DNA from: Trichobilharzia szidati
Lineage: Eukaryota > Platyhelminthes > Trematoda > Strigeidida > Schistosomatidae
Direction of reading: 5' to 3'
Length of the DNA: 64,000 nt
NCBI GenBank assembly: GCA_944472155.2
Contig: OX235272.1
Location: 89,224,020 to 89,288,019, forward strand
Shown: one piece after another, positions 46 through 55,043 of the stretch
Position numbering within the stretch: position 1 is the first letter of the stretch
Layout of the letters: every line of letters begins with the position of its first letter
Translations under genes and position numbers: made by a program
Notes under the pieces: model-generated
Told to the model about the DNA's origin: nothing
Seen by the model: only the letters and a program-made list of their open reading frames with translations
Database searches by the model: none

Positions 46-534
46 GTTGGAGTATTTCATCATGAGCTGACATCGGTTAGAGAACCATTGGAAAACCTGC
101 AGGGAGTACTGGACAGCTGTACCGACCTAGCCTGGGACTCTTCTGCAGCGACTGGCCTTATCCAGGCAGTGACCTGGGGTTCTAATGGGAAGCTGTGACC
201 AGTAGGGTACAGCAGGTTGAAGGTGAGGCAGTAAGTCATCGAAGAAGACATTGAGAAGTGGTCACGCTATGTCATGAACTGACAAAAGTTGGAATTCATG
301 GGCCATCGGATCGTGTCCCAGTGCCTTAATGGTCGACGAGCTCACCTTGTAACCAGAATGTCCTGGGTTCGAACCCCGGTGGTGTGGGTGCGTACTGCTG
401 AGGAGTCCCAAACTAGGGCGAAACAGCTGTCCAGTACTCCCTGCAGGTTTTCCAATGGTTCTCTAACCAATGTCAGTTCATGATGAAATCCTTCAACCAA
501 ACAAACAAAATCTCTACAAAACCAATACTTGAAA
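46..534 (+). mobile_element. Hammerhead SINE, family b, inverted composite with TSD
   Basis: Retroposon of about 489 bp. It opens with an antisense copy of its own 3' end (about 50-150: inverted 'ggttctctaac' tail and antisense ribozyme), then a body with a tRNA-like head (B box GGGTTCGAACCCC at 366-378 region), a sense hammerhead (392-437) and the 3' tail 'caatggttctctaacc'. The flanks ATTCCTTATTA (35-45) and ATTCCTTACTA (535-545) differ at one base and read as an 11-bp target-site duplication, so the inverted composite inserted as one unit. Pol III transcription is inferred from the head. Non-coding: ORFs across it are incidental. Confidence 0.75.
392..437 (+). ncRNA. Hammerhead ribozyme (type I), intact core, SINE family b
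   Basis: Stem I is GTACTG (392-397) with CAGTAC (432-437). The core CTGAGGA (398-404) fits CUGANGA. Stem II is GTCC (405-408) with GGGC (416-419, one G-U pair), then GAAA (420-423). Stem III is the palindrome ACAGCTGT (423-430), followed by the cleavage-site C431 (a GUC triplet). All conserved catalytic nucleotides are present, so self-cleavage is predicted. The very short palindromic stem III matches the schistosome Sm-alpha hammerhead layout, which works best as a dimer or with tertiary contacts. Confidence 0.75.
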
Positions 535-545
535 ATTCCTTACTA

Positions 546-1084
546 ATTAGCATTTTTTTCAATAAAATTGTTGAATTAACTGTTACGTCAGTTGTAATAT
601 GGAATTCACAGAATTAATATATTGATTACCTTTTTTTAGTTCACAGCTACTAATCAATACCAAACAAGATATGAGCAAATACCATTCAAAGTTCATACAC
701 GATACCTATAATAATACTTTTTAATGAAGTCGTCTAAGTTATTGGATGAGGTATTTAGAGGAGTATATAAAGTTTTAGCCAGAAAAACAATTCAGTGGCT
801 AACTGTCATTCTAAAATTCTAAAATTAGAATAAATGAAAAAACTTAGACTTTTTAAAACTTACTACTTGTTAGTCGACTGTCGTGTTGTGTTCTCAATGA
901 CAGTGAGCTGGAGCTTTCTTCTTACTTGACTTACCGTATTCTGATGAAGCCTGTTTTGTCAAGTATGCCCATATCATCTGATTGTTTCCATTCTGGTTAA
1001 TTCTCAGTCGGACTGTTCCAAAATGAATAGCATTTTATCAGAAATTAGTCAGTGGTCCATTTGTCGAATGGTCTTAAGCTGTAT
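546..1084. other. Intergenic, no feature seen
   Basis: AT-rich sequence with no supported ORF, RNA or repeat boundary. Confidence 0.5.
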
Positions 1085-1970
1085 TATTATTATTGTTTCC
1101 TTTAATTCCTAGAGGAACATAGGGCTTCAGCCGTGCGTTTCCATTGCGTTCGGTTCTCTGCTAGAGTCTTCACCTGGCTCCACGTCTGCCCACACGTTTT
1201 CATCTCCTCTCCACATGACCTCCTCCAAGTCACCCTTGCACTGACGACCAACTCGCCGCTTCCCAATCGGGTTCCACTCGAGCAATGGCTTGTCTAGTGA
1301 TGTCACTTGATGGTTTCCTCAGAGTATGACCAGCCAATCCATCTCCATTTCTCCCTGCCTATTTGTTTCACAATCAGTTGCTGGTTGGTTCGCTCCCATA
1401 GATCTCTGTTGCTGATCTTTTCTGGCCGGTCAACTGATCTTGAGTATTGAGTGAAGACAACTGCTAATGAAGGTCTGCAGTTTGCTTGAGGTGCTCTTTG
1501 TGACACGCCAAGTCTCTGATCCGTATAGTAGTACTGACTTCACATTGGAGTTGAAAATCCCGATCTTATTTTTGATGCTGAGCAGTGCTGTTGAACTCCA
1601 CACAGACTTGAGAGTAGTGAAAGCTTGTCTTGCTTTTCCGATTCTTGCTTTGATATCCTCGTCAGTTCCACCTGTAGTTGGAACGATGCTTCCCAGGTAG
1701 GTAGTTAGATGAAGGAGGTTGTTTCTTTCAGGTTCCTTCCATTTATGCTGATTGCTGTCTGTTGTTGTTGTTGTTGGTGTTGGCCAGGAATCTTCATCAC
1801 CTCCGTTTTCTCTATGTTCACCTGGAGTCCTATCTTTGATGCTTCTTCTGCCAACTTGTTACTTTTCACTTGCATATCTTCCAGTTTGTGGGAAATCAGA
1901 CATATGTAATCGGCGAAGTTCAGATCCTCCAAGTTTTTTGTGTGAGTCCATCTTATGCCTGTTTCATCAG
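1085..1970 (-). pseudogene. LINE (RTE/SR-type) 3' fragment, degenerate
   Basis: 3' part of a non-LTR reverse transcriptase on the minus strand, running from the RT catalytic box to the 3' end. Translating 1932 to 1705 gives an RT motif read as FADYICLIS, in which the second catalytic Asp of FADD is Tyr, followed by 'EEASKIGLQVNIEKTEV'. Further on, frames give 'WPEKISNRDLWERTNQ' and 'RKWRWIG', the conserved C-terminal region of this family. Frameshifts separate these blocks. The 3' end abuts a short ATT-rich tail near 1083-1094. This is the commonest LINE family in the window (also at 3.3, 10.3, 13.4, 16.5, 40.1 and 42.2 kb). Inactive. Confidence 0.75.
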
Positions 1971-2289
1971 GTCTTAAGCTGAATCCCTCCCAAATTGTCA
2001 GATTGTCAATTTCACTTTAATACACAAACGTGATTCACATGGAGTAGTTTATTCTCATCATCCTTGTATCGTGGATGGTACTGATTTCGAGTGTTAAATA
2101 TCTTGGACTGTGTATTTCCTCTGAACTTCCCTCGTCTTTCCAAATCATGTTAATTTCGAAAAGGATATTTCATTTAACCTTCTACATAAGGAAGTTACGA
2201 CTGTCTGGTATCACTCAGTCTGTATTTTTATAGTTTGTTAGTTCTTGTATTCTACCTGTTGTTCTTTATTGCCCATCCCTAAATCGGGT

Positions 2290-2605
2290 CGCGTGTGGGG
2301 ACAAGTACTAGCCGAAGACATTGGCTAGGGGTCGCGCTATGTCGTGAATTGGCAGAAGTTGGAACTCATGGGCCATTGGATCGGGTCCCAGTGGCTTAAT
2401 GCTTTACGAGCTTGCCTTGTAACCAGAAGGTCCTGGGTTCGAACCCTGTTGGTGAGTGCGTACTGCTGAAAAGTCCCAAACTAGGACGAAACAGCTGTCC
2501 AGTACTCCCAGCTGGTTTTCCAATGGTTCTCTAACCAATGTCAGCTCATGATGAAATCCTGTAACCCAACATTCAAATCCTTACAAACCAACACCCGTAA
2601 ATCTT
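2290..2605 (+). mobile_element. Hammerhead SINE, family b
   Basis: Body with a tRNA-like head (A-box-like 'cccagtggcttaatg', B box GGGTTCGAACCC near 2434-2446), ribozyme and tail. The 5' antisense part is missing. The hammerhead (2460-2505) keeps stems I, II and III and GAAA, but its core reads CTGAAAA, so the essential G8 is A and cleavage should be lost. Confidence 0.7.
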
Positions 2606-2609
2606 TCCT

Positions 2610-4235: not shown

Positions 4236-4381
4236 ATAATAATATTTCTTTGGGTTTCAAGTTGGCTTCAAGCTTCAGCCTTGAAGTTTCAGTAGCAATA
4301 GTCTTTTAACGACAGAAGATAAACGAAGTTCTACATATTTATTTCCCTTAATGAATCTGAATAAAGGAAGAATAACAGTCT

Positions 4382-4905
4382 TTGGAGAATAAAATGGTAC
4401 TACCATTTATTTATCGTTGGCTTCTCATCATCTGCTTACAGCTCACAGATATTATTAAGTATATCTACAGAAATGTCACAAGATCGTTCAAAATTATCAA
4501 AAGGCGAAAGAGTTCATCCCTCCTTAAGTTTGCTGAAGCAATCTCCATCAAGTGCCTGAAACTCGATTTCTGTATTCAGAAAGAAGCGGTTATCAGTAGT
4601 CTTTCCTTTCCTATCCTGGTAACTGGATGTTTTCACCCTCTCTTTCATTTGATTACATAGTGCCGAAAGTTTCCATTGTGTATGATTATTATTGTTTGGG
4701 ATAAAGTGTTTATTATTACTATTATATATATTATTACTGTATGCATATACCGATTGATTGATTTTTTGCTTAAAAATGAACTCAGTGCAAGTATATTAAA
4801 AGTTTTTCTGTAGATATACTTAAAAATGTCTTTGGGCTGTAAGCAAGCAGCTGATGAGAAGCCAACGAAATAAACAATGATGGTACCATTTTATTCTGCA
4901 AAAAC
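4382..4905 (+). mobile_element. Penelope-like element (PLE) 3' fragment with inverted terminal arms
   Basis: About 60-bp arms at 4387-4443 and 4838-4898 are inverted copies, with a second inverted pair at about 4455-4475 and 4808-4830. Between them 4382-4660 encodes a decayed PLE C-terminus ('AEAISIKCLKL', 'FCIQKEAVISSLSFP'), which aligns by eye with 'AEALVIQKLKP...CIQKKYVQPLSLPW' in the copy at 18.8 kb. Inverted flanking repeats are typical of PLEs. The right arm carries a minimal hammerhead. Confidence 0.6.
4847..4899 (+). ncRNA. Minimal hammerhead ribozyme of a PLE
   Basis: Stem I is GCAG (4847-4850) with CTGC (4896-4899). Core CTGATGA (4851-4857) and GAAA (4867-4870) are intact. Stem III is A-rich and ends in a palindrome centred on GGTACC. 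Stem II is almost absent (one G-C pair). This matches the minimalist hammerheads reported in metazoan PLEs. The mirrored copy in the left arm (about 4388-4436, minus) has lost C3 and has GATA for GAAA. Confidence 0.55.
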
Positions 4906-5304
4906 TGTTGTTCTTGCTTTATTCAGATAAGCGAAGTGTTAACGTACCTTTTTATTACGGAAAAACACATCATATTTGTACATTTTCAACCACATTAATA
5001 GTCAGCTAGGTTAGCGGACAATAAACTGTTCTGATTGGTTGGCAACTGGCCCAACGTTAAGCAGAAGTATGAAAAGTTGTCCAATGAAATTATTTCCAGA
5101 CCACAACGTAAACTAGATTCAGACTCGAGGAATAAACACTTCTAACCCTTAGCCGCTCACTTAAAATGTCGATTTCAACTTTTGGCCACATCCTATCATC
5201 TATATAGCACACTTCATAGTATTATTCTCTTTTACGGGATGAGGTTACTAGCCTCAATATTCCTTTTTTCCCAGGCTTTCCATCATCTACGAGACGTTTA
5301 GGAG

Positions 5305-5590: not shown

Positions 5591-6500
5591 GTGAAAAAAA
5601 ATCGCCACTACTCACTTTCAAGAGGGTCTTTCTCCTGCAAGAAACTACTCACCCAGCATGTGAAAGACAAAGCTGTCGCATTAGGCCACTTCAACATGCA
5701 TATACAAGTTCACTTGCTCTTGTGGAGCTTAGTACATTGGCCGTACCATGCGCCGGCTTGTAAAACGCGCGCGGGAACACTATCCAGCATGGTTAGCAAA
5801 GGGAGAACGCAAAGGGGTATACATTTCGATAACAGAACATCTGGTGAATTCTGGACATTCAGGCCCATTTGAAAAGTCCTTCAAAGCCATATATTCGAGA
5901 TCCGATCCAACATACCAAAGGGAGTGAAATCAAGACACCTAGGAATAGCTGAAGCACTGGCGATCCAAAAACCCAAACCTACCCTGTGTCCAAAAAAACT
6001 TACGTTAAACCGTTATCCCTACTGTGGTCATCATGAAAAGTCAGTCTCACCAATAATGATTATCCTTTAAACTTTCTTGTCTAACCTTCCCGTTTATTTG
6101 TTATATTTACCTTTTAAATCCCGATCTGCATTGTTAGATTTGGTTACTGTTTTTATCTTTATATGTCCAAAACTCCTACCCATTTCTTTAATACTAACTC
6201 CTTAACCCGTCATTATACAAACTGACTAGCTTTCTAGTAATTATAATCCTATTTTGTCTTTTCTACCCGATCGTCCTGATTAGTAAACGTTGCAATTTTT
6301 AATTTGACCTTTGACCTGAAATATTTCTAGAATAGTGCCACTACCTATCTTCTGTTTATTACACTTAGTGATCTTATTAATCTGACCTCTGACCGGAAAT
6401 AATTCCGGGAATTTTCCCACACATTCAATATAAATACACGAATGTACAGCCTAGTTGATGACTTCGTCGAAAAGAAAATTTTCTTCATACAACTGGTTCC
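5591..6500 (+). pseudogene. PLE (GIY-YIG type) 3' fragment
   Basis: Coding pieces in several frames match the GIY-YIG region of the copy at 18.8 kb: 'SRGSFSCKKLLTQHVKDKA', 'SITEHLVNSGHSGPFEKS' and 'EALAIQKPKPTLC'. The YIG motif itself is garbled by frameshifts. The 3' untranslated part (6050-6500) matches the arms at 18376-18800 and 19500-19900, including 'gaatgtacagcctagttg'. Non-functional. Confidence 0.65.
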
Positions 6501-6537
6501 CTTGATAAATTTCGATAAAGAAAGGAAGACGAAATTT

Positions 6538-6584
6538 GCAGTATAAAATGATATCATTCTATTTCACAGGTTCTCATCAGCTGC
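6538..6584 (-). ncRNA. Minimal PLE hammerhead, left arm
   Basis: Mirror of the right-arm motif: stem I strands at 6581-6584 and 6538-6541, core at 6574-6580 (TCATCAG on plus), long stem III containing ATGATATCAT. Core residues intact. Confidence 0.5.
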
Positions 6585-7293
6585 AGAATACCTGAAATTA
6601 CAATGGTTATATAAATGATAATAACATACTTTAATGTTTGAGTAGTAGTAGAGAAGAGATAAAATTGACGCATCCAAAAAAGAATGAAAGCATTACAATT
6701 TTTAGTTTAAGTTTTCATCATCAATTTATACACTTTCAAAGTTGAAAAGAGGGGGGAGGGGTAAGACAGAAAACAGAAAATACTGATTAGCAGAAACAGT
6801 GTTAGCTAGTAGGTTCACATAGCAACTCCAAACAACAAAGGCGGTTACAGTTTATGAGATTAAGATTTGTTCAGTGAGTTGAGATCACTGAATCAGATGA
6901 CTAACTAATATAATCGAAATCAAAATTCAGTTACCAAGGTAGTGAGAGGTTTGATTTGATTTTTGATTTTGATTAGTCATCTAATTCAGTGATCTCAACT
7001 CACTGAGCAAATCTCAATCTTATAAACTGTAACCGCCTTTGTTGTTTGGAGTTGCTATGTGAACCTACAAGCTAACACTGTTTCTGTTAATCAATTTTTC
7101 TGTTTTCTGTCTTACCCCTCCCCCTCTTTTCAACTCTGAAAGTGTATAAATTGATGATGATAACTTCAACTAAAAATTGTAATGCTTTCATTCTTTTTTG
7201 GATGCGTCAATTTTATCTCTTCTCTACTACTACTACTCAAACATTAAAGTATGTTATTATCATTTATATAACCATTGTAATTTCAGGTATTCT

Positions 7294-7340
7294 GCAGCTG
7301 ATGAGAACCTGTGAAATAGAATGATATCATTTTATACTGC
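7294..7340 (+). ncRNA. Minimal PLE hammerhead, right arm
   Basis: Stem I GCAG (7294-7297) with CTGC (7337-7340). Core CTGATGA (7298-7304) and GAAA (7313-7316). Stem III is about nine pairs, closed by the palindrome AATGATATCATT, then U16.1 (7335) and H17 = A (7336). Stem II is essentially missing, so monomer activity may be weak. Confidence 0.55.
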
Positions 7341-7366
7341 AAATTTCGTCTTCCTTTCTTTATCAA

Positions 7367-7794
7367 AATTTTCTTCGCTGCAACCGTCTTTTTTATAATT
7401 CCTATGATCCAATGTGTATATTCAGTGTCTTTTTCCTTAAAAACTCTCTCAGCTATAAATTATCTGTCTTTACATGATGGAAACCTCTCACCTAAAACAG
7501 TAGTTCTTACTAGTCAGATAGAGGTAATCTAAACACGAAATGGCTGTTCTGTTCATCTTGTTCTGAGGTCATCAAACTCAGCCGATCATTTCACAGGGGG
7601 CGAATCAGCTGAGACTCTGGTTATTGGCTTCAAACTCCTCACATCAGGCGGTTGTATGCGCCATCATACTAATTTTCTGGGTTTCTTGATGAACATTTAT
7701 AGTACTAAACATATCATGTGTTGTGATCGGAAATATTTTTGTTTTGATTCCGTCAATTTTACTCTTTTACTCTCAGTTTTACACTTTGCTCTCC
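7367..7794. other. Intergenic, no feature seen
   Basis: AT-rich, no ORF or repeat boundary that can be supported. Confidence 0.4.
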
Positions 7795-12164: not shown

Positions 12165-12600
12165 TGCTATCAGTAAGTAGTATCAAGTTTGACCACAAAT
12201 TGATAGCAGTCAGAGAAGCTTTAGAGAACCATGCAATACTTGACAGCTGTTTAGTTTTAGTTTGGGACTTACCAGCAGGGCTCTCAGGACCTTTCGGTTA
12301 CAAGGCGAGTTCGTAGACCATTCAGCCACTGGGACCAATTACACTGGCTGGCAGGTGCACTACAATCACGAATTGGTAGAAGTTAGAATTCATGGGCCAT
12401 TGAGTCAGGTCTCGGTGGCTAAATAGTCTATGGGCTTGACTTGTAACCAGAAGGTGATGGGTCCGTATTGTTGAAGAGTCTCAATCTAGGACGAAACAGC
12501 TGTCTAGTACACTCTGCTGGTTTTCAGTGGTTATCTAACTGATATCAGTCTGTTTTCAAACCTGAGGCAAATTCAATCCCTACAAACTAATTCTTGAAAA
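12165..12600 (+). mobile_element. Hammerhead SINE, family b, inverted composite, decayed
   Basis: Antisense half (about 12190-12340), then a sense tRNA-like head and a hammerhead relic (12465-12510). Its core reads TTGAAGA, so C3 is lost. Stem I survives only with wobble pairs. The palindromic stem III ACAGCTGT is intact. Confidence 0.6.
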
Positions 12601-13390
12601 GTATTTAGTAAATAGAAGTAACAATACTGTATTCAAACAACGCCATCTTGTGCATTTGTTGAAACCATTTTATTTTTTAGTCAGTAGTGCATATTTTGTT
12701 TGTATTTTTATGGATTTTCTTAGTTGTAGGTAGCATGCATAACTGCTAGCGTGTTATTTCCATCAACCGCTCACAATTTATAAATCACGTGTTCATCAAC
12801 CTTTCATTCATTAATTAACACTATTGATTATCTTAATAAATCCAAGTATGAGGCTACTGCATACGGTGTATTGATTTTTCTTTCCATTTAAAGTGTGTAT
12901 TTTGTACTTGCTCTGAGGAAATATGATGGGAAGCACACTCAGTTGGCTGTATTGGTACAAATAAGTTGTGATGCGAAATCGGAAGATATTAATTAGTTTG
13001 TGTGAGTGACCTTGAGCTTTCCTGTAGAGTTAAGACTGTGTTAGTAGCCAATTAGAAATTAGATAAGTAATGTTATTCGGAAACTCTTTAGTGTGCCATA
13101 AGTACTTTCTTTTAAATAGAGTTGGTTTAAAGTTTGTTGCGAATATTTTTGTTATTTAAAAATGATTTGTTGCTTTTATTTTTCCAATTAAAAGCCTTAA
13201 GAATTTTCTCAAATTGTCAGCTGAATTTACCTAGTTTGACTAATGAAAATGATAAATATTTAAATGACTTAATACATAAAAATTATAAGATAAAATTAAA
13301 CTAATGTGGTCAGATGAATGCCTGGGAATTTGAGTTTTTAAAAGTTTCAGATAGCATGACATCTAATGCATACTGAATGACAGTCAAATC
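12601..13390. other. Intergenic, no feature seen
   Basis: AT-rich, no supported feature. Confidence 0.4.
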
Positions 13391-15185
13391 TCTACCTCAA
13401 CTTCGTCGACTTTGAAAAGGCGTTCGACAGGGTTGACCACGAAGTAATTTGGAAACTATTTCAACATTACGGAGTGCCTGAAATATTTATCAGCCTCATT
13501 CAGCAACTATATGACAGTAACACGTGTCAGGTGATCCACTATGAGGAATTCAGAGAAGCCTCTGAAGTGAAGACAGGAGTAATTTAGGTTTTTTACGAGT
13601 TGACCACAGATTGATATCAGTTAGAGAAGTATTGGAAACCAAGGAGTACTGGGCAGCTGCTGTATCATCCCAGTTTGGGAATCATCGGCAGTACGCACCC
13701 ACTGCCACGGGTCGAACCCAGGACCTTCCGGTTACAAGGCAAGCTCGTATACCATTCAGCCACTGGGACCCGATTCAATGGCTCATGAATTCTAACTTCC
13801 ACAAATTCGTGATTTAACACGACTCCAACCATTATCGTTGGTGGGACATCCATCCACACACGTGACATCTAATTGGACCTCACTGGTCACGACTTCTTAC
13901 TAGAACTCCAGGAATTTCCATCCTGTAGCAAGTCACTAGTGAGCATCAGATTAATTTTCTATAGTTTGGTTTGTAAGGGTTAGTTTTGCTTTTACGAGTT
14001 GATCACGGATTGATATCAGTTAGAGAACCATTGGAAACCAGGTCCTGGGTTCGACCCGTGGCAGTGGGTACGTACTGCCGATGATTCCTAAACTAGGATG
14101 AAACAACAGCTGTCCAGTACTCCTTGGTTTTCAATGTTTCTCTAACTGATATCAATCCGTGATCAACTCGTAAAAATATAACTGACTCTTACAAAACAAG
14201 CTATAGAAAAGTAATATAAGGCTGCCTATTATCACAGACGATATTCCTAGTTACGGTGGATTGGATTATTCGTCAGACTGTGGGGAGCGAGAAGGCAGGA
14301 ATACACTGGACCGACAAGAAGACTGTTGAAGATCTGGTTTTCGCGAGTGGATAATTTATGTCTAATGTCACTTAAATTCGAAGAATTACAGGCGAAAAAC
14401 AACAGGTTAGCAGAAGAGGTAGACAGCAAAATAGGACTTCAAGTGAACATAGAGAAGATGGGGACGATGAAGATATACTTAACCAAACAATAAGGACTAA
14501 AAGCACCAATTACTTTCATTGGGAGAAATTTGAAAGAGGTCGCTTCCTTCAGTTATCTAGGCAGCATCATTTCAACTACAGGCAATCGGCACGAATGAGG
14601 ATGTCAAAACCAGAATCGGAAAGAGAAGGCAGAGCTTCGCCAATTCTAAATAAGTCTGGAAATTTACTGCATAGCAAAGCATGATAAATAAGATTCAGAT
14701 TTTCAACACCAGTGTTAAATCCAATCATTCTTTATGGATCATAAACTTGGAACTGACATCGTGAAAAGCATTTCCAGCTAGCTAAAGACTTTTATCAACA
14801 ACTGCCTCCTCTGGCTCCATATTGAAAATCAGATGGTTGGCCAGAAAGAATTAGGAAGAAGAAACACTGAGATCGAACCAATCAGGAACCTATTGTTGAG
14901 AAAATATGTGGAGGAAAATGGAAATGGACCGGATACATGTTAAGGAGATAACTGAATGACATCACGCGCTAGGCTATCACTCGAGTGGAATCCGAATAAC
15001 AAACGACGAGTAAGTCATGGGTCCGAGAGTGACATAGAGAAGATCGTGTGAGGAGGAGGGGGAGGAGATGACAGACTATGGGCAACCGTGGGGCGGCTAA
15101 AAAGGAGTACAGAGGACAGGATGAAATGGAGATGGGCTTTTGAAGCCCTATGTTCCACACGAGACCTAAGGGAATAATAATAATA
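13391..15185 (+). pseudogene. LINE reverse-transcriptase relic split by a SINE
   Basis: 13391-13586 encodes RT blocks 'LYLNFVDFEKAFDRVDHEVIWKLF' in pieces (catalytic Asp in the DFEKAFD motif) and 'SEVKTGV'. The sequence resumes at about 14221 with 'CLLS', 'AGIHWTDKKTVEDLVFAS' (FADD box destroyed) and later LINE C-terminal pieces to about 15165. The break holds a 620-bp SINE complex flanked by AGTAATTTAGG (13578-13588) and AGTAATATAAG (14210-14220). The 3' end is followed by an AAT-rich tail (15170-15190). Dead. Confidence 0.7.
13589..14209 (-). mobile_element. Hammerhead SINE complex, family b (two units, one folded back)
   Basis: 13589-13985 is a minus-strand unit (antisense ribozyme near 13648-13700, tRNA-like head, 5' part). 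13993-14174 is a foldback unit: about 50 bp beginning 'ttttacgagttgatcacgg' is repeated inverted at its other end. Between these is a plus-strand B box and ribozyme whose core is CCGATGA (U4 changed). Imperfect 11-bp duplications flank the whole complex inside a LINE. Confidence 0.65.
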
Positions 15186-15979: not shown

Positions 15980-16029
15980 CTATCAATCAAGTTTGAAAGG
16001 TGTTCATCAAGCTAAGTGACTGATAACAG

Positions 16030-16425
16030 TTGCTGTGCATTTCGAAATCGTGTCGAATGGTTGGAGGTACTCGGCAGGGAGAGTTAGAAATCGTCATTGG
16101 GGCGCATCTATAATCTCAAAAGGAGTTGTTTCCCCTAAGAGATTCAAACCCACAGCATGAAGTGCTGAACTCAGAGACTTTATCCCTCAGTCAGTACAGT
16201 TCAACAGGGAGTCGGTTGTATTTCCAAATGAATATCTCAGTAGTAAAATCACTGACTGCAAGACTAGATGATGTGGTTGCGAATCTTCTAAGAGATATCA
16301 CTTTCTTCCAGGTTGCAGATACACCTTGCTGGTGAATGTCAACAAACACGCAGCTTATGTCCAAGTGTCCCTGCCAACTGCCTCTAGTCAACTGATATTA
16401 AACTGAAGGCTATCTGAGGAGAATA
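16030..16425 (+). mobile_element. Hammerhead SINE, family c, decayed composite
   Basis: Ends are inverted: 'ggttggaggtactcggcagg' at 16059-16078 against 'cctgccaactgcctc' at 16372-16386. The 3' part 'gcagatacaccttgctgg' matches family c at 28.4 kb, but the ribozyme core is broken ('ttgctggtgaatgtc'). Confidence 0.5.
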
Positions 16426-17879: not shown

Positions 17880-18075
17880 TCCAGACTCCACAGATGTACC
17901 TGGAGTTCCAAGTGAGTGGTGGTACTCCAAACTGGGACTTGAACCTAGCACCCAAAGTGTTATCCACTAGGCCACCTGAGGCACTATCACTCATTGGGCA
18001 TTGGAGGTAAATTCAGCTGACAAGTTCCCAAAGTGGACGAAACGTGCATCTTGAATTCCACTGCTAATCACTATT
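17880..18075 (+). mobile_element. Hammerhead SINE, family a-like, composite
   Basis: An antisense tRNA-like head ('gttatccactaggccac', inverted A box) is joined to a sense hammerhead at 18011-18056. Stem I pairs ATTCAG with TTGAAT, a changed but still paired stem compared with other copies. Stem II GTTC/GGAC and GAAA are kept. The core reads CTGACAA, so G8 is lost. Confidence 0.55.
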
Positions 18076-18119
18076 CACGAGATAAAATCATCTTCTTATC
18101 CTCAAACATCGTCGAACCT

Positions 18120-18240
18120 GAACTTAACTCTTGAAATGTGATGTTAGGCGGTTGGAGGCAGTCAACAGAAAGCTGTGGACCTAGATTTTGTGCTTAGTGT
18201 CACTTGTCATCAACGCATATCTACAAACTCAATGGTATCT
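18120..18240 (-). mobile_element. SINE family c fragment
   Basis: 'ggttggaggcagtcaacag', 'ggacctagattttgtgct' and 'cacttgtcatcaacgc' align with 43600-43680. Ribozyme core decayed. Confidence 0.4.
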
Positions 18241-18375
18241 TGATAAGTATTTCCATTCTATGTACAATGAGACTATAAGTGGAAAGTTAATGACCTATTT
18301 AACTCTAAGTCAGACATCATAGTTACAAGACTGGAGAAAATTTATAATCACCAGTGTAAAACCCTCAATGAAATA

Positions 18376-19906
18376 TTAAGAATAAAAAGATAGTTGCAGT
18401 GAAGGAAATTTTATTTTCGACGAAATCATCAACTAGGCTGTACATTCGTGTGTTTATGATAATAAATGGGTAGGAAAGTTCCAGAATAATTTCTGGTCAA
18501 GGGTCAGATTAATAAAATTACAATTAGGAATTAAAATGTCATAATAAATAGGGGGACGAATAAAGCTCAGACAAAGTAGCATCATAATTACTGAGAAGAT
18601 TGAAATATTGTGCAATTAGGGGTAAGAAATGTAGAAATAACAAAAATAGACAGGATGTTTGGATAAAAAATCTAGTGGGATCATAACTAATGTGACGAAT
18701 AATTGTTTATGTAATCAGGGATTAAATATGTAGAAACAATAAAATGACAAAATAGACAGGAAGTTTGGATAAGAAAGGCAATGGGATAGTCACTTTTAAA
18801 AGAATTACCTGTTTATGATGGCCACGGCAGGGACAAGGGTTGAACGTATTTCTTTTGGATACATAGCGTGGGTTTGAGCTTTTGGATGACTAGTGCCTCG
18901 GCTATGCCCAGATGTCTTGGTTTTACTCCCTTTGATAGGTTTGATCGAATCTTGTATATTATTTTGAAGGATTTTTCGGATGGCGCTGAATGTCCTGAAT
19001 TGACCAGATGTTCTGTCACTGAACTATATACCCGTTTTCGTTCTCCTTTTACTTGCCAGGCTCGATAGTGTTCACGAGCGCGCTTTTCAAGTTGGCGCAT
19101 GGTACGGCCGATGTACTCATCTCCGCACGTGCAAGTAAACTGGTATATGCAAACAGAAGTGGCCCAATGCGACAGCTTGTCTTTCGCGTTCTGGCTGAAC
19201 AGTTTCTTGCAGGAAAACGTCAGTCGTAGGCTTGCGGCGAAGTATGTCTTCCTCAGAGATTTACAGAGGCGTTTACAAAGGATTTCTGCTTCAATGTCAC
19301 CTTTGAATTCTAGATGAAGCAGAAATATCTTCTTCGGGACGGATTGAACTTGTTCGGAAGTCTTCTTTGATTTGAGGTTCTTGTCTATGAACCTAGGCGG
19401 AAAACCGTTTTCCATCCAACCGTTTTGCCATCCAAAAGCTCAAACCTACGCTACGTATCCTAAAGAAATACGTCCAACCCTTGTCCCTGCTATGGCCATT
19501 ATAAACAGGTAATTCTTTTAATAGTGACTATCCCATTACCTTTCTTATCCAAACTTCCTGTTTATTCATGTTATCTTTAAGTTTTTCTTAATCCCTATTT
19601 ACACTACCATATTTTCATATCCACACTTCCTGTTTATTTTGTCATTTTATTGTTTCTACATTTCTGACCCCTGATTGCACAATATTTTAATCTTCTCAGT
19701 AATTATGATGCTACTTTGTCTGAGCTTTATTCGTCCCCCTATTTATTATGACATTTTAATTCCTAATTGTAATTTTATTAATCTGACCCTTGACCAGAAA
19801 TTATTCTGGAACTTTCCTACCCATTTATTATAAAACACACGAATGTACAGCCTAGTTGATGATTTCGTCGAAAATAAAATTTCCTTCGCTGCAACTGTCT
19901 TTTTAT
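18376..19906 (-). mobile_element. PLE fragment bracketed by inverted arms
   Basis: The left arm (about 18376-18890) and right arm (about 19432-19906) are inverted copies of a PLE 3' end, including the last codons and the whole 3' untranslated part. Between and overlapping the left arm lies the GIY-YIG coding fragment on the minus strand. The left arm is longer in one segment (18600-18720), where related 'ggatgtttggata' and 'ggaagtttggata' stretches are repeated. Confidence 0.7.
18813..19415 (-). CDS. PLE polyprotein C-terminus: GIY-YIG endonuclease fragment
   Basis: Open for 200 codons; the first ~60 form the tail of the RT-to-endonuclease linker. Residues about 88-180 form a GIY-YIG domain: 'CIYQF' (Tyr91) takes the GIY place, a C-x-C pair sits at 95 and 97, 'EYIGRTMRQLEKR' holds the YIG (101-103) and the following Arg residues, 'TEHLVNSGH' is at 134-142, and 'IAEAL' supplies the expected catalytic Glu (173). 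In full PLEs this domain nicks target DNA for priming by the upstream telomerase-related RT. The RT is absent here, so this is a 5'-truncated piece with an incidental start codon. No internal stop or frameshift interrupts the domain. Its stop lies inside the left inverted arm. Confidence 0.7.
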   Translation of the reverse strand: MENGFPPRFIDKNLKSKKTSEQVQSVPKKIFLLHLEFKGDIEAEILCKRLCKSLRKTYFAASLRLTFSCKKLFSQNAKDKLSHWATSVCIYQFTCTCGDEYIGRTMRQLEKRAREHYRAWQVKGERKRVYSSVTEHLVNSGHSAPSEKSFKIIYKIRSNLSKGVKPRHLGIAEALVIQKLKPTLCIQKKYVQPLSLPWPS

Positions 19907-19910
19907 TATT

Positions 19911-20735: not shown

Positions 20736-20737
20736 TG

Positions 20738-21095: not shown

Positions 21096-21228
21096 TTCAA
21101 GTATTAAACAATTTAAATAAATATTAAACAAATTTATAACAGAAAGCATGTAATGATGGCTATATTTTTTGTCAGGCTGGAACTCCGTTATATATATGTG
21201 ATAAATGAGACACACGAATACCAGATAT

Positions 21229-24400: not shown

Positions 24401-24520
24401 ATAAAAGAGTGGACTGAAATGCCCTTGGATACGCTACAGAAAATAGCATTAAACCGAGAAGAATGGCGAAGACTGATAGCGCGAACTGTCATAGCACCCC
24501 CAAGACGAAAGTCAAGGGAC

Positions 24521-25055: not shown

Positions 25056-25059
25056 GAAG

Positions 25060-25292: not shown

Positions 25293-25324
25293 ACAATGTA
25301 GTATTTAAAACAATTAGTCCCTTT

Positions 25325-36496: not shown

Positions 36497-37085
36497 GTTT
36501 GATCACGGAATGACATCGGTTAGAGAAACACTGGAAAACCTGGGGGTACTGGACAGCTGTTTCCTCCCAATTCAGGACACTTCAGCTGTTGGGATATAAT
36601 CCAATGACCCATCAGTTCTGACTTCTGCCACTACTCCATGGTTTTCACTGGTTCTTTAACTGGAGTCAGTTCATCATCAAACTTGAAATCAATCCAACCC
36701 CTGCAAACCAACAACTGAAAATTGATTTGATCCTCACTGTTGACTGAACACAGGATGAATTTGTTTGAAATCCTGCTGAGCAGCCATGACCAGAGGAGTC
36801 CATAAAGTTGGGTGTAAAGACGAATAATCTCCGATGACATTGGCTGCAGGTCACACTATATATCGCAAATTGGCAAAAGTTAGAATCGATGGGTACTTGG
36901 ATTCCGTCCCATTGTCAGAATGACCAAAGAGCTCGCCTTGGGTTCGATCCCGGGTGGGGTCATGAATGCATATTTTGAAGAGTCCTAGACACAGACGAAA
37001 TAGCTACCTAGTAATTCCTGGTTTTCAGTGATCAAACCTAAAACTAATCAGATCTCTGCAAACCGGTACTTGGAAACAGCGCTTC
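36497..37085 (+). mobile_element. Hammerhead SINE, family b, decayed composite
   Basis: Antisense 3' end (36505-36560), then tail and body pieces, B box GGTTCGATCCC (36940-36950) and a ribozyme relic near 36970-37020 (core TTGAAGA). Confidence 0.5.
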
Positions 37086-38300: not shown

Positions 38301-38313
38301 GCTTATCATATAT

Positions 38314-38870
38314 TAATTGGTGGATGGTGACTAGCAGTGGAATTTAGGTTGCGCATTTCGTCCTACTTGGGACTCGTCATCAGGATGTACCTGCACTCCT
38401 CAGTGAGTGATGATGCTCCCACTGAGGCTCGAACACAGTGACCATAGTTTCAAACGCCAAAGCGTGACTCACTAGACCACTCGGGCCACTAGCACTTCTG
38501 TCCGGTCAATCGCAGGGGAACCTAAAACTGAATTGAATAATCAATATGACCCGTTGCACAAGAGGTGGCTCTCGTGGCCCAAGTGGTCTAGTGGATAACG
38601 CTTTGGCGTTTGAAACTATGGGCATTACTTGGTTCGAGCCTCGGTGGGAGCATCATCACTCACTGAGAAATTCAGGTACATCCAGTGACGAGTCCCAAAT
38701 AGGACGAAATAGGAATCCTGGATTCCACTGCTAGTCACCATCCACCAATTAACTTCTAATTACATGCCCAGACATCGTCGAAGCATCTGCACAAGAAGGC
38801 GACATGTCAACCTGAGACCGAGCACTTTGGTCCAATCAATCGACGGGAAAATCTTAAATTCAATTAAATA
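38314..38870 (+). mobile_element. Hammerhead SINE, family a, inverted composite with 13-bp TSD
   Basis: A minus unit (antisense ribozyme 38335-38395, inverted B and A boxes) is followed by a plus unit. The plus unit has A box GTGGTCTAGTGGATAACG (38582-38599), B box GGTTCGAGCC (38631-38640) and a ribozyme at 38678-38725 whose core lacks C3 (TGACGA). GCTTATCATATAT occurs at 38301-38313 and 38871-38883, so the 557-bp composite moved as one unit. Confidence 0.75.
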
Positions 38871-38883
38871 GCTTATCATATAT

Positions 38884-40130
38884 GTATAACAAACTTACTA
38901 TAAGAGATTTTGTAGATTTTAACTTAAGTGATCAGGTGTAGCTAGAGTATTATGCGTGGTTAGTTATTTAGAAGTCATTAACTTGGAGCAAACTTTTCAT
39001 GCTCCGGGATATGAGTAAGGGCCGATGATGTTCAAACGTATGACCCTTTGGCTGGAAATTGAGTACTTTAAGCCAATGAACCACATTCCCACCATCGTTG
39101 TATTTTCGACGGAATTGGCATCTTCTCGGAGATTCAAATTCAGTTTACCCAGTATTGTAGTCAAAGACGTTATTGTGTTACACACCAACTGAATTCATTG
39201 AAATCTACACAAGTTTTATTCTGTTGATGGAATTCAATATACTTTTGTTCATTACTTCAGATGCAGCCGTTAAACGCGTCTTCCTGTACCTGTAGAAGGA
39301 TTGTGATTCCTGCCTACTAGTCTTTGTTTGCTAAACATTTAAATGAGTCATGCATACTATGTCTTATTTTCCTTTTGTGTACTTATGAAGCGTGATCTGA
39401 TTGGCTGTTTATTTATATCTTTCAGATTGATTTTTTAAATGACGGTAATATAATATCATGTTAGGCCATTCAAACGAGTAATGCTTATTAGTGAACTAGA
39501 ATTTGGACGTGTTTATTCTAATTTTTTTTTTCAACAGACTAGCCACCGTCAATGAACTTGTGAGTATTATTTCCCTTTTTCGCCTTTAATGGAATAAGTA
39601 CTGATCTTCTAATGGCTTTAATGAACGCCTCAACCAAATACACTTGTCAAAGTTATCAGTTATCCAACTGCCATTAACATTACTATGGCAAATATTACTG
39701 ATAAGGAATTGTAAGTAGTATATTAGTGACGTCTTCTGCAAGAATCTTGAATTGAGGAGTTATAGATTAAGTTAAAAAGGTGAGAAGCCAGCATATACAA
39801 AGCAAGGAATGAAGAAATAAAAAGCGGAGTGCGAATAACTTTTGCGGAATAAAGTCTAAATGTAATTCTGTTTTTTCAGTATTCCTGAGAAAATATATCT
39901 CATTAATTCACACTTTTGTGGCTTAACAAGTAGAAACAAGCTATTCTGTGGTTCTGTTCATTACTTTCCAATAAAACAAAGTATGCATTAAAATAATTCC
40001 ATTCAAGCTTTGAGAAACTAAACTCTATAATTCATGTTTTGTGCAGCTTTAGTCCACCTTGTTCAATTATAACTTTGCTAATGATATGAGAAAATAATTT
40101 TGGCGCTATGGCAGAGTACAATTCCATATT
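38884..40130. other. Gene-poor stretch
   Basis: No gene or clear repeat boundary supported. Confidence 0.4.
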
Positions 40131-43489: not shown

Positions 43490-43795
43490 ATGTGTCTAGT
43501 CCTTTCTTTGGTGCAGACTGAATTCCATCAGTCAAGTTTGCAATGTGGCCACCATTCTAGGTGGCTCGCCATCACGGTGCACTTTGAGTTGTTGATATTA
43601 GATGGTTGGAGGCAATCGGGAATAAGCCTTGGACCTAGTTTTCGTGCTAGTTGGCACTCACCAGTCATCAAGGAGTATCTACAACCTTGAGGGAACTTAT
43701 GTCCCTTCTAAGATTAGAACCAGCATCACCCATTGCTGCAGTGAGAGACGTTACCACTGAGCTATTCGAGCTCGCAACTGACCTTCTGTGGGACT
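43490..43795 (-). mobile_element. Hammerhead SINE, family c, nested in Merlin
   Basis: Minus orientation: ribozyme relic (43625-43685), then the tRNA-like head in reverse with A box TAGCTCAGTGGTAACG (about 43752-43768) and a GGTTCTAATC B-box relic. The core is broken ('TTGATGACTGGTGAGT'). Confidence 0.55.
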
Positions 43796-43844
43796 GTATA
43801 TATAAATATATATGAAAATAACGTATAAAAAAGGTATAAAAGTG

Positions 43845-44449: not shown

Positions 44450-44460
44450 AATTACAAATA

Positions 44461-44925
44461 TTAGCCAATGGATTGATATCAGTTAGAGAACCATTGGAAA
44501 ACCTGGGAGTAGTGGAAAGCTGTTTTGTCCGAGTTTGGGACTCATTAGCAACACACATCCACCGGGTGTCGAGCCCAGGACTTTCGGGTTACAAGGCGAA
44601 CTCGTAGACCATTCAGACACTGGGACCTGAATCAATGTCCTGTGAATTCTAACTTGTAACGGCTCGTGATCTTAGCTTGACTGGCGCCAACCAATGTCTT
44701 CGGCGAGCATTTGTCCTCACTCCTGACAGGATGGACTTCACACTGGTCACGACTTCTCACTAGAATTCCAGGAAACTCTGTCCTGTAGCCAGTCGCCGAT
44801 GATTCCCAAACTAGGATAAACCATCTTTCCAGTACTCCCTACTCGTTTTCAATGGTTCTCTAACTGATATCATTCCACTGTCAAACTTGAAAAGCAAATC
44901 AAATCCCTACAAACCAACTCTTGAA
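44461..44925 (-). mobile_element. Hammerhead SINE, family b, inverted composite with 11-bp TSD
   Basis: 465 bp bounded by AATTACAAATA at 44450-44460 and 44926-44936. A full minus unit (ribozyme 44500-44550, tRNA-like head, 5' part to 44775) is joined to a plus-strand copy of its own ribozyme and tail (about 44783-44880). Both ribozyme cores are mutated. It interrupts a Merlin transposase. Confidence 0.8.
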
Positions 44926-45274
44926 AATTACAAATAAACAAAATCTGGGTTAATGACATATGGGATCTATCAGAAAATAATCCTACGAAGTAATGTATTC
45001 ATCGTCTTATCTTCCCTCACAACGCTGAACATATCCATCAACCGATCTACTGAAGCTTTTTATATTCATGCTACCTTCAAATGAACGAATTCTTCCATTT
45101 TTAATCAGTCTCACATCTAAGTAGTACTGGAAATCTTGGTCTACACCAAATTTCAGACACAACTTTGTTAGAGCAGATATTCCACTTGGAGAATCTCACT
45201 GGTCCATTCAAGGTCATTGGCGCGGTCCTACTCCGTTGGGTAGTTACTGGTGCTTAAAGTTTAACCTGTCCGCC

Positions 45275-47860: not shown

Positions 47861-48047
47861 CACCACTGCAGGGGAAGACTGACGAACCGTGTAATAGCTA
47901 TGTCTTCAGTGATCCGCAGCAGACTGGGACAAATCTGTACCTTAGTTACCGTAAATTATTTTCAAACGTCATTTCCGTGACCACTGTCTACCAGAGATAC
48001 AGAAAATGGTATTACGAAAATGTCAAATTCCTACAAAATGACCCTTG

Positions 48048-48435
48048 AGAATTAATCTTATGCTCACCGGTGAATGGCTACAGGATGAAGTTGACTGGAG
48101 TTCTAGTGGGAAGTTGTGACCAGTGGAGTCCTTTAGATCGGGTGTGAGGACAAATACTCGCCTGTGATGGTGATTAGCGGTCGCGATGAAATCACTAGTT
48201 GACAAAAGTTAAAATTCATAAGCCGTTGGGTTCTGGTCCAAGTGGTTTGGCCTCGTAACCTGAAGTGCTTGGTTCAGTCGCTAGCGGCGAGGTCATGGGT
48301 GCACACTGCTGCAGAAGCTTAAACTAGGACGAGACACATGCCTAGTACTCCATGGTTTTCAGTGGTCCTTTTACCATCAATCTGTGATCAAACTTAAAAC
48401 ACCCCAAATCCCTACAAACTAACTTCTGAGAATTA
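48048..48435 (+). mobile_element. Hammerhead SINE, family b, decayed
   Basis: Full-length unit beginning 'gagaattaatcttatgctc'. tRNA-like head without a good B box. Ribozyme relic (about 48305-48350) lost core and GAAA (GAGA). Confidence 0.5.
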
Positions 48436-48504
48436 AGTAAACGAAGTCAGAAAGATACGTGTGAACCTCGGCACCATTATGGACAATAAAATGCGCTTAA
48501 TGTT

Positions 48505-48612
48505 CACCCGGCGGGTGCGTACTGATGAAGAGTCCAAACTAGGAAGAATAGTCAGTTTCCAGTGGTTCTCTAACTGATGTCAGCTCATGATGTAATCCTT
48601 CATGCAGTCAAA
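48505..48612 (+). mobile_element. SINE family b 3' fragment
   Basis: 'gcgggtgcgtactgatgaag' followed by the family b tail 'ggttctctaactgatgtcag'. Ribozyme broken. Confidence 0.45.
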
Positions 48613-52033: not shown

Positions 52034-52331
52034 GACCAATTGGGAATAGGAATGATTTAACACCTGTCCACCTAAACATCTGGAAACCTCTACTACCCCT
52101 AGGACAAATAGAAAGGAAGAAAGACAGCTGTAAGAAACATGTTTGGAAGTTGTATAGTCACAACTGTGATGTGAATAATATGAAGGATAAATTACGTTCA
52201 AAACGTTATCCAGTAAATAATACTGTTTCACCACTTGATTTATGCAATAAGCAAAATGAAATATGGAATGACATCATTTTGCTCAAAAAGTTTTTCAAAC
52301 GCAGTTTGATAAATATACATAAAATTAGATG
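52034..52331 (+). CDS. Possible terminal host exon, cut by a SINE
   Basis: Open reading frame preceded by an acceptor-like 'ttattattaatag', entry phase 1, encoding about 98 Lys/Asn-rich residues ('NRNDLTPVHLNIWKPLLPLG', 'KKHVWKLYSHNCDVNNMKDK', 'SPLDLCNKQNEIWNDIILLK'). A SINE inserted at 52328 changes the last residues. Across its TSD the older frame runs a few codons further and stops at 52979. Not recognised; may instead be part of an unknown element. Confidence 0.3.
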
Positions 52332-52951
52332 GAGGATTTCATCATGAGCTGACATCATTTAAAGAACCATTGAAAAACCACCTGGGAGTACTAGACAGTT
52401 GTTTCGTCCTAGTTTGTGACTCTTCACCAGTACACACCCACCCACTGGCGTTCGAACCCAGGACCCTCTGGTTTCAAGGCGAGCTAGCTAGTAGACCATT
52501 AAGCCACTGCGACCCGATCCAATAGCCAGCCCGTGAATTCCAAATTCTGCCAATTCATGACATAGCACGACCACTTTGCCATGTCTTCTTCGATGAGTTA
52601 CTGCCTCACCTCACTGGTGTCAGCTCATGATGAAATCCTCCATCCAGTTGTAACAACAGAAGACAAGGGCCAGGCAACAGATCGTTTATTAAGGAAAGTC
52701 AACACATATTTATAATTTTAATGTACATTATTGTAGATTATTGTTAGTAGAAAATACAGTCTTTTGATTGGTTGTTTCTCACTGAAAGTTAACCTTGCTA
52801 ACTGTATCCGCCTACGCAAAGCCTTTGTTCTCAATTTCTCACCCCCAATATTGGAACATAAACATTGACATCAATTACTGTCTACCAACTTTGGCTAGCA
52901 GCCAGCTCTCACAACACAGTCGAAAAATCCCTACAAAAACCCATACTTGAG
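52328..52951 (-). mobile_element. Hammerhead SINE, family b, with nested solo LTR and 11-bp TSD
   Basis: Bounded by ACATAAAATTA at 52317-52327 and 52952-52962. Minus body with antisense-strand ribozyme at about 52386-52440 (sense core GUGAAGA, C3 lost), then a plus-oriented tail copy ('gtcagctcatgatgaaatcc'). The LTR 52649-52916 is inserted in that tail. Confidence 0.75.
52649..52916 (+). mobile_element. Solo LTR, plus, TSD CAGT, internally deleted
   Basis: 268 bp, TGTAACAACAG to CTCTCACAACA. CAGT at 52645-52648 and 52917-52920. About 75 bp shorter than the other copies. Confidence 0.7.
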
Positions 52952-53464: not shown

Positions 53465-53810
53465 TTATTATTATTATTCCCTTAGTTTCCGAGTGGAACA
53501 TAGAGCTTCAGTGGGACATCTCTATTCCATCCTGTTCTCTACAGTCCTATTTAGTTGGCTCCACAATTTTCCGTAAGCTTTCATCTCCTCTTCATACGAT
53601 CTCCTACATTTCACTCTCTGAATTATGCTCAACTAGTCGTTTGCTATTCAAGTTACATTCGAGCGTTTGTCAAACGTGGATGTCACTTAACGGTCTCCCT
53701 AGAGTGTGTCTACTCCATCTTTGTGTTCTTCAGCCTGTATGTATAGCAATAGATTCTTGGCCGGTTGATTTCCAGCGTTCCTTGTTGCTTATCCTTTGTG
53801 GCTGGTTAAG
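53465..53810 (-). pseudogene. LINE 3' fragment, divergent subfamily
   Basis: Plus-strand view 'tccgagtggaacatagagc', 'ttcatctcctcttcatacg' and 'ccggttgatttccagcg' matches 8190-8540 in order. Minus-strand LINE C-terminus, heavily mutated. Confidence 0.5.
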
Positions 53811-53814
53811 CAAG

Positions 53815-54000
53815 GAAAAAAACACCTTGTAGATAGTGGGCATAAATTTGATGTTAATAATGAATTTTAAGTTATTTATTGTATTCCGACCAGTACTAAT
53901 TTCGGTTAACGAGTCCGTTTTCCAGATACACCTGAGGTCGTGAGAATCCACAAGAAGACATCTTTATATGAATGCTAAAAAAGTGGCAGTTTTGGCTTCG
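53815..54000 (+). pseudogene. PLE GIY-YIG C-terminal fragment
   Basis: 'LVDSGHKFDVNNEF', 'VIYCIPTSTN' and a decayed remainder; corresponds to 'HLIDNS...FKFIYKV' in other copies. Confidence 0.45.
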
Positions 54001-54680
54001 CCCTTTCACAATTTATCATTGTCCAAATTATTTTGCTCTTCCCATTACTTCATGTTTAATTGTGGACTACTTAGTTAATTTGAACACCCATTTTTCTGAA
54101 ATTACTTCTATCATTTTAATTGTTGTATTGATTTTCTTGGTTTGTAATCATCCACTTGATATGTTCATATTGACAAATTGTTTTTATCAAACTTATCACC
54201 CTTAGGCTGGTAAATTTTAGCCTTGTACTTAAAAAATTGCTTCATATATTAGAGTACAGCCATAAATAAGGATCTAATTTGAAAGCAGATATTTCTTCTC
54301 TCAGTCCTGTAGACTTGTTATTCTACTGAGGCTGAGTAACGCAGTTATAAAACAGGTTATAAAAATGCGTTGAAATACAAAGGTTTACTTTTCTGGATGG
54401 ATTATTCAAACAGTCATTAGTAGTTCTATTATAGTAAATAACAGCTGATCATCTTTAACTTTTTAGGTTCAAACTTCACTGACTACTTACAAAATGCAAG
54501 TAGTGTATTAGTTATGTTAAAATCTTTAATTATCCATGATGTTTCCTTCAAAAGAGACAGAGAAAATTGACTGAGTAAAGTGAGAGGAAGTGAATTTCGT
54601 TGTGAAATACATTGGGACAGATGATATTAACTAAATTAAACTCTATGAGTAATCACGCATTAGTCACACACAAACACACA
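54001..54680. other. No supported feature
   Basis: AT-rich; CA repeat near 54664-54681. Confidence 0.35.
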
Positions 54681-54693
54681 CAATTCTAATAAA

Positions 54694-55043
54694 TTTAATT
54701 GGTGGATGGTGACTAGCAGTGGAATCCAGGATGCGCATTTCGTCCTACTCGGGACTCGTCAACTGGATGTGCCTGCATTCCCCAGTGAGTGATGAGGTTT
54801 GAGCCCAGTGCCCATAGTTTCAAACGCCAAAGCGTTATCCACTAGACCACATCCAGATGACGAGTCCCAGATAGGACGAAATGCGCATCCTGGATTACTC
54901 CACTGCTAGTCACCATCCAACACTTAACTTCTAATTACATGCCCTGACATCGTCGAAGCTTCTGCACAAGAAGCCGACATGTCAACCTGAGACCAACCAC
55001 TTCAGTTTAATCAATCGACGGGAAAATCTAAAATTAAATCAAA
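54694..55043 (+). mobile_element. Hammerhead SINE, family a, inverted composite with 13-bp TSD
   Basis: AATTCTAATAAAT at 54681-54693 and 55044-55056. Antisense ribozyme (54718-54770) and inverted tRNA-like head (to about 54850), joined directly to a sense ribozyme (54850-54897) and tail. Sense core ATGACGA, antisense-unit core UUGACGA: C3 lost in each, all stems kept. Confidence 0.75.

Follow-up and report, generated by a model that had tools for sequence, protein, structure and literature searches.

What route of insertion leaves a short interspersed element (SINE) with its 3' end repeated in inverted form at the 5' side? The question is raised by 64,000 nucleotides from the trematode Trichobilharzia szidati (contig OX235272.1, positions 89,224,020 to 89,288,019; hereafter the window), a stretch with dense repeats and a GC content of 33-41%. 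A first-pass annotation of this DNA had described three SINE families carrying a hammerhead ribozyme (a, b and c) with one inverted plan, and had suggested snapback reverse transcription of cleaved or dimeric RNA as their common route. The data presented here indicate that the two inverted halves likely insert together and that their two outer ends follow a rule, and the anatomy of the insertions suggests that Penelope-type machinery, priming at both ends, was probably responsible.

Hammerhead SINE families and their inverted composites

A consensus unit was derived for each family, with the ribozyme cleavage site as its origin; it was handled as circular and contains, in this order, tail, prehead, tRNA-like head and hammerhead. 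The units measure 329 nt in family a, 400 nt in family b (394 nt in its older variant B) and 270 nt in family c, the last perhaps incomplete. The Rfam model Hammerhead_1 (RF00163) gave 14 matches in the window at E ≤ 1, ten of which reached the gathering score of 34. Family a carries a type I hammerhead matching this model, the sequence at 54851-54895 scoring 62.3 bits. The tRNA-like heads described earlier were borne out by A-box and B-box matches in all three consensus units, though ARAGORN called no tRNA over the window. The best reading of these sequences is that all three families are SINEs with a tRNA-like head and a type I hammerhead, and that family a is of the Sm-alpha kind.

Both strands of the window were aligned to the consensus units by a Viterbi mosaic procedure; looser penalties filled the window with chance segments. 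The aligner permits no gap at the joint between arms, so that joint positions may be a few bases off. Hammerhead-SINE sequence formed 21 clusters, and in 15 of them an antisense arm was followed directly by a sense arm, with the tails outward (6/6 clusters of family a, 7/11 of b and 2/4 of c). The window reversed and the window complemented, used as control strings, yielded no mosaic segment in either case. The 21 abutting segment pairs comprised these 15 antisense-sense pairs, one sense-antisense pair and five same-strand splits within arms. As delimited by the mosaic, the composites are the following (TSD, target site duplication):

46-146 antisense, 147-537 sense: b1, with an intact ribozyme core in the sense arm
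12183-12334 antisense, 12335-12603 sense: b3
13582-14039 antisense (more than one unit), 14040-14252 sense: b4
15982-16229 antisense, 16230-16407 sense: c5, old, about 70% identity
17884-17980 antisense, 17981-18118 sense: a6, abutted tail to tail by a family-c fragment at 18119-18239 (minus strand)
25030-25142 antisense, 25143-25294 sense: a8, abutted on the left by a truncated Penelope-like relic
28288-28416 antisense (long tail, ending 4 nt from the cleavage site), 28417-28563 sense: c9
36497-36627 antisense, 36628-37076 sense (more than one unit): b10
38301-38883: a11, arms 38313-38488 antisense and 38489-38884 sense, TSD GCTTATCATATAT at 38301-38313 and 38871-38883
44450-44936: b13, arms 44470-44794 antisense and 44795-44930 sense, TSD AATTACAAATA at 44450-44460 and 44926-44936
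52330-52609 antisense, 52610-52645 sense (tail only): b15, short at both ends
54682-55056: a16, arms 54692-54848 antisense and 54849-55053 sense, TSD AATTCTAATAAAT at 54682-54694 and 55044-55056
57935-58081 antisense, 58082-58229 sense: a18
59761-59915 antisense, 59916-60276 sense: b19
63084-63276 antisense, 63277-63443 sense: a20

No inverted arm was found in the other six clusters, delimited in the same way:

2276-2602, plus strand: b2, simple copy
20734-21105, minus strand: b7, simple copy
28991-29103, plus strand: family-c fragment, simple
43507-43799, minus strand: c12, simple copy
48023-48602, plus strand: b14 (longer than one unit) and b14b, in direct orientation and separated by 73 nt
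57161-57255, minus strand: b17, fragment

One plan is thus shared by the three families, as had been proposed. The further statement that each has an antisense copy of ribozyme and tail at its 5' side holds for the 15 composites with a qualification, as the extent of the antisense arm varies from a bare tail in c9, where the sense arm supplies the head, an intact ribozyme and a short tail, to over one unit in b4; it does not hold for the six simple clusters. At 18118/18119 the family-a sense tail of a6 joins the family-c antisense tail with no gap, the sole tail-to-tail abutment in the window map.

Genome-wide analyses (1.11 Gb, 907 contigs) covered family a only. A 25-base ribozyme pattern matched at 17165 places with up to three mismatches, and at none when read backwards. 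From two pattern searches 110 family-a loci were taken, 40 of them exact matches to CTGATGAG and 70 matches in which the catalytic base C3 was not C; they were the first listed places, with no random draw. Removal of 15 look-alikes, by a rough rule that may discard young copies and failed to catch the pair L039/L040, left 95 loci. Among these, 69 consisted of an antisense-sense composite alone, 20 of a single strand (9 plus, 11 minus), and six were complex, each containing an antisense-sense composite. In a check that did not use the mosaic, an inverted repeat was present at the ribozyme in 63/110 loci vs 10/110 random non-element points of the window, a test that misses composites with barely overlapping arms. 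Finally, all eight pairs of neighboring ribozymes no more than 1.5 kb apart, among the first 100 listed places with C3 not C, were antisense-sense. These results confirm the inverted plan beyond the window, and it holds for family a genome-wide.

A single outer target site duplication

The outer TSDs of the window composites were scored at refined ends against 3000 random pairs. Perfect duplications flank a11 (13/13), a16 (13/13) and b13 (11/11; p ≤ 0.0013 in all three). The 8 nt ATTCCTTA at 35-42 and 535-542 around b1 was borderline (p 0.051), c9 had an outer repeat of 7 nt (p 0.16), and no outer TSD was detected at the refined ends of the other 10 of the 15 window composites. Matches between junction and flank were significant in b15 alone (own tail), b10 reaching p 0.051. 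In the 69 genome composites of family a, outer TSDs scoring at least 10 were present in 31, compared with 22 of 1352 mismatched flanks, and those scoring at least 13 in 15, compared with 0 of 1352. TSDs scoring at least 11 measure 11-19 bp, and a single outer TSD is clear in a minority of copies. At that score, four junction-to-flank comparisons (3 and 1) vs 23 outer ones gave a match, which is not the pattern of separate TSDs for each half that the first-pass annotation had named as evidence against its proposal. The two halves thus likely insert together, by one replication route common to the three families.

One short and one long end

In the genome sample of family a, outer ends cluster at about 32-50 and about 145-163 nt beyond the cleavage site, and end classes were defined after inspection as short (20-70 nt) and long (115-186 nt). 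One short and one long arm were found in 57/67 composites; two composites had two short arms, one had two long arms, and in seven an end fell outside the classes. All composites with a TSD score of at least 10 (31/31) had one arm of each kind. In the window, exactly one long arm was present in 11/15 composites and two long arms in none, with thresholds picked afterwards (100 for families a and c, 90 for b). The mean length of short arms is 199 nt and that of long arms 197 nt, and the two classes do not split by lineage (identity within classes exceeds that across classes by 0.0002, P 0.26); therefore, the two-end rule is fixed at insertion rather than inherited. Single-strand loci (n = 20) had the short end in 15 cases and the long end in four. 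The rule limits how a Penelope insertion can work.

Templates of the arms

In a8, a16, b13 and c9 each arm contains sequence that is absent from its partner, and simple self-copying is therefore excluded at these four composites. In the genome sample, identity between arms was 0.879 within composites vs 0.857 between different composites (50 composites), the C3 allele agreed between arms at 0.595 vs 0.340 after shuffling (37 composites), and 89 changes were common to both arms vs 46 expected. The 16 composites with a TSD score of at least 11 included eight whose arms were no closer than unrelated insertions (rank ≥ 0.28), seven with near-identical arms (rank ≤ 0.03) and one intermediate; locus L025 has a 14-bp TSD, yet its arms are 83.5% identical, as distant as unrelated insertions. 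The seven composites with near-identical arms likely derive from one RNA or one source locus. Altogether, our reading is that the arms come from two RNA molecules, sometimes of the same locus, or from two units of one long RNA. A stricter version, in which family-a arms always come from different RNAs (a8, a11 and a16 differ in C3 allele between arms), was discarded given the mixture found in the genome sample.

The inner ends of family a are scattered across the unit in the genome. They were not enriched at the cleavage site, where 2/30 window arms (0.95 expected) and 3/135 genome arms (4.5 expected) ended, and 24/30 window arms cross the site uncut. Cleaved RNA was rejected as the usual template on account of this lack of enrichment. 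The other half of the earlier suggestion, a dimeric or longer RNA, is retained for some copies, since segments longer than one unit number 15 in the genome sample, and three arms and one simple copy exceed that length in the window; such copies are compatible with circular or tandem RNA.

Recurrent loss of C3 from the ribozyme

C3 was lost in 17/33 window ribozymes, compared with 37/326 at ten other scored positions (p 2e-7), and in 10/16 vs 10/154 when segments of at least 85% identity were considered. The lesions in the window (A, T, G or deletion) amount to eight family-by-allele kinds at C3 vs one to five at nine other positions, and the core is intact in 2/34 window segments, judged by sequence only. 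Five window copies with A at C3 also allow CTGATGA to be read three bases upstream, a register judged unable to keep stem I.

In the genome, family-a copies were counted with a 29-base motif in which the other 28 bases had to match, either pyrimidine being accepted at N7 and deletions remaining uncounted. C3 was not C in 1275/1553 copies (82%) and was C in 278; the changed alleles among the first 100 listed places were A (78), T (19) and G (3). C3-changed copies were distributed between strands without skew (612 vs 663), and C3-intact copies were split 200 vs 78, as a tandem array would give, which suggests that C3-intact copies lie in a tandem array with intact ribozymes. In arms that had not been selected by the ribozyme pattern, C3 was lost in 35/44 vs 21/401 at nine other positions. 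Among 43 partner arms, C3 was the sole lesion in 24 and the core was intact in four, a sample biased to C3 loss because most centers had been picked as C3-not-C and arms agree; with C3-intact centers, 7/13 partner arms nonetheless lacked C3. The A at C3 may be an inherited dominant allele, and the recurrent loss may have a mutational cause at C3 or reflect selection after insertion. Copies with a changed C3 are predicted to fail in self-cleavage, and the repeated loss of a single catalytic base gives a hint at the effect of the ribozyme on mobility.

Penelope-like relics and other elements of the window

Two relics in the window share features with the SINE composites:

18371-19929, minus strand: Penelope-like relic of 200 aa (frame 18813-19415), its 3' end repeated inverted at the 5' side
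25330-25912, minus strand: second Penelope-like relic, in an inverted repeat with no significant TSD

The inverted arms of the first relic (18378-18888 and 19429-19910) are 85.5% identical over 512 columns, with the 9-bp repeat AAATATTAA at its outer ends (18371-18379 and 19921-19929, p 0.017). A tblastn search with the 200-aa relic revealed nine further places in the window at E ≤ 0.01, and its six protein matches include four of Trichobilharzia regenti and one of Schistosoma mattheei; these homologues are annotated as GIY-YIG, helix-turn-helix or reverse transcriptase proteins. A Pfam GIY-YIG domain was found at 24814-24912 (E 3e-5). The relic group was called Penelope-like on this domain, on the names of its homologues and on a C-terminal pattern. 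The antisense arm of a8 is met directly, within 24670-25294, by a truncated relic of Penelope-like coding sequence, and the second relic (25559-25723, minus strand) follows directly. A reading of a8 as the genuine 3' terminus of a Penelope element was rejected, as a complete end elsewhere shows that the adjoining frame is truncated. In a Penelope-like 3' region, TTGATGATTTCGTCGAAA at 19856-19873 (plus strand) resembles a very small hammerhead core; it was not reported by Rfam.

An open frame of 1031 aa resembling that of a long interspersed nuclear element (LINE), with endonuclease and RVT_1 domains (Pfam), lies at 21428-24520 (plus strand) and ends in ATG repeats; LINE-like copies in the window terminate in (ATT/AAT)n and SINE tails do not. 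A frame with a DDE_Tnp_IS1595 domain (31101-31562), placed between 60-bp inverted repeats of 97% identity, makes 30939-31708 a small DNA transposon. DNA searches of viral-contig and genome-contig collections gave no matches.

A possible insertion mechanism and its alternatives

Insertion of the three families by Penelope-type machinery with two-ended priming is regarded as probable on the anatomy: the arms stand head to head with tails outward, a single outer TSD surrounds the better-preserved family-a copies, inner ends vary in position, outer ends fall at two favored sites, typically one of each per insertion, and a Penelope-like relic nearby is built alike. A Penelope-type protein would cut both target strands; reverse transcription would start from each strand 3' of the ribozyme, at the short site on one and at the long site on the other; and the two complementary DNAs (cDNAs) would run inwards, from two RNA molecules or from two units of one long RNA, to be joined where they meet. 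Copying would have to traverse the ribozyme, and transcripts that do not cut themselves would yield full arms, so that uncut transcripts would win; this is how we read the broken ribozymes. With the cut located 5' of both start sites, the ribozyme could act as a brake, and mainly ribozyme-failing transcripts (mostly at C3) would be copied in full. This fuller version, combining Penelope machinery, one site per strand and the brake, is advanced tentatively and with some doubt.

Several observations weigh against the Penelope reading. No sequence match between SINEs and Penelope-like elements (PLEs) was demonstrated other than weak similarity beside a8, where the family-a long tail resembles the Penelope coding end to a degree equaled by 17-38 of 1000 shuffles. 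Pfam found no GIY-YIG domain in the 200-aa relic, the domain occurring in one relic only, and the C-terminal pattern on which the Penelope-like assignment partly rests is one that we presume to be of that kind. The plan may also lack specificity: further compact inverted repeats occur at 4355-4928, 6507-7371 and 61028-61385, the second lying inside a Penelope-like relic and bounded by 10 bp repeated at either side (p 0.006). The region 6487-7376, which spans this second repeat, is an inverted-repeat element with arms about 93% alike, inserted in a Penelope-like 3' end and flanked on both sides by AATTTTCTTC; LINE-like pairs more than 1.2 kb apart in the window were head-to-head in two cases and tail-to-tail in one. 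An (A)ATT motif at the start of the TSD, seen in 3/4 window TSDs, was abandoned as a signature, as AATT begins only 2/23 genome TSDs. The uncut-transcript reading accounts for broken ribozymes, but not for the loss of C3 over other essential bases. As regards published accounts, SINE TSDs (11-19 bp) are longer than those of Penelope (8-10 bp); the published tail difference of 30-40 bp fits family b (about 35) but not a (about 110) or c (70-90); and the Anolis PAc protein used the same start sites on both strands in vitro, which leaves the strict one-short-one-long rule of the SINEs unexplained.

Under snapback, the initial cDNA or RNA would fold onto itself and serve as its own template, so that its 3' end is duplicated in inverted form; PMC3846280 suggests a variant of this in which antisense RNA primes itself. 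Such a route would fit the excess agreement between arms of one composite in C3 allele and shared changes, the near-identical arms of 7/16 composites, and the likeness of the b1, b4 and b13 arms in the window. It is nevertheless improbable, and was given up as the general route that the first-pass annotation had suggested, given the private sequence in each arm of a8, a16, b13 and c9 and the distant arms of 8/16 composites with good TSDs, such as L025; nor does it predict the short and long ends of 57/67 composites. If the copies had inherited their form from an inverted master element whose long and short ends were fixed, and differed in how much of its middle they had lost, one end of each kind per copy would follow. 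Such a master should then leave long and short arms as separate lineages, which they are not (0.0002, P 0.26), and together with the 15 short and four long ends of the 20 single-strand loci and the inner ends scattered over the unit this makes such a master very improbable.

In L1, head-to-head inversions arise by twin priming, which on a single RNA leaves arms that do not overlap. LINE machinery is at hand in the endonuclease and RVT_1 frame at 21428-24520, but the arms of the SINE composites overlap and their tails end unlike LINE-like copies, so that formation of the composites by this machinery seems unlikely. The least credible alternative, with hardly any probability left to it, is that of separate insertions that became neighbors by chance: the dense repeats and the one tail-to-tail and one direct pair in the window would suit it, but 15 of the 16 abutting pairs of opposite strand share one orientation (probability 2.6e-4 under a fair coin), 8/8 pairs in the listed genome places are antisense-sense, and the composites carry single outer TSDs.

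Comparison with known systems

The Penelope reading draws on published insertions of this kind. According to the parts of PMC3846280 available, Penelope elements of Adineta have adjacent inverted pLTRs within one TSD of 8-10 bp, and one of the inverted pLTRs may bear a 31-bp tail; the TSD is absent from some copies, and in one family direct pLTRs alone are the usual arrangement. The Anolis PAc protein, as described in the available part of PMC11167929, cuts and extends both strands in vitro, from two adjacent internal sites, and hammerhead mutants at C3 and G8 still insert in vitro. The SINE composites resemble these PLEs in the adjacent head-to-head inverted copy, the single TSD and the tail optional on one arm, and PLEs likewise show priming on both strands at two internal sites with a hammerhead nearby; unlike PLEs, the SINEs have no frame. 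The earlier statement that the inverted plan had not been described stands for SINEs in the literature searched, but the same anatomy is published for PLEs in the text seen of PMC3846280. Known schistosome PLEs include Perere-10 and Sj-penelope2 (PMC4465651, in part).

The three families are like the Sm-alpha and Sj-alpha elements and the W-elements in being tRNA-derived SINEs with a type I hammerhead of short stem III, with several families per genome (available text of PMC8490949 and PMC2770079). Among the four Schistosoma mansoni families (W25.2, W26.2, W27.2 and W36.2), units of 415-428, 399-402, 403 and 332-335 bp occur (PMC8490949), to be compared with 329 (family a, vs 332-335) and 394-400 (family b, vs 399-428) for our units, a likeness by description and not by sequence. 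PMC8490949 mentions inverted repeats within elements and, for a single W25.2 copy, TSDs, and the portions available of PMC8490949 and PMC2770079 describe no paired inverted arms with one TSD.

Metazoan non-LTR retrozymes, as presented in the accessible text of PMC7229834 and PMC7761336, are likewise small non-autonomous repeats with a type I hammerhead, some copies exceeding one unit. Retrozymes are described there without promoter or partner motif, whereas the SINEs have both an A and a B box and bear an insertion signature like that of a partner; judged by sequence, most SINE ribozymes are broken at C3 and are predicted to lack the active self-cleavage expected of a retrozyme. In the available part of PMC7761336, PLEs are named as likely partners of animal retrozymes by co-occurrence only, with no motif that identifies the partner. 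With thousands of copies bearing a PLE-like signature of insertion, the identity of the autonomous partner that mobilizes Sm-alpha SINEs and animal retrozymes becomes testable.

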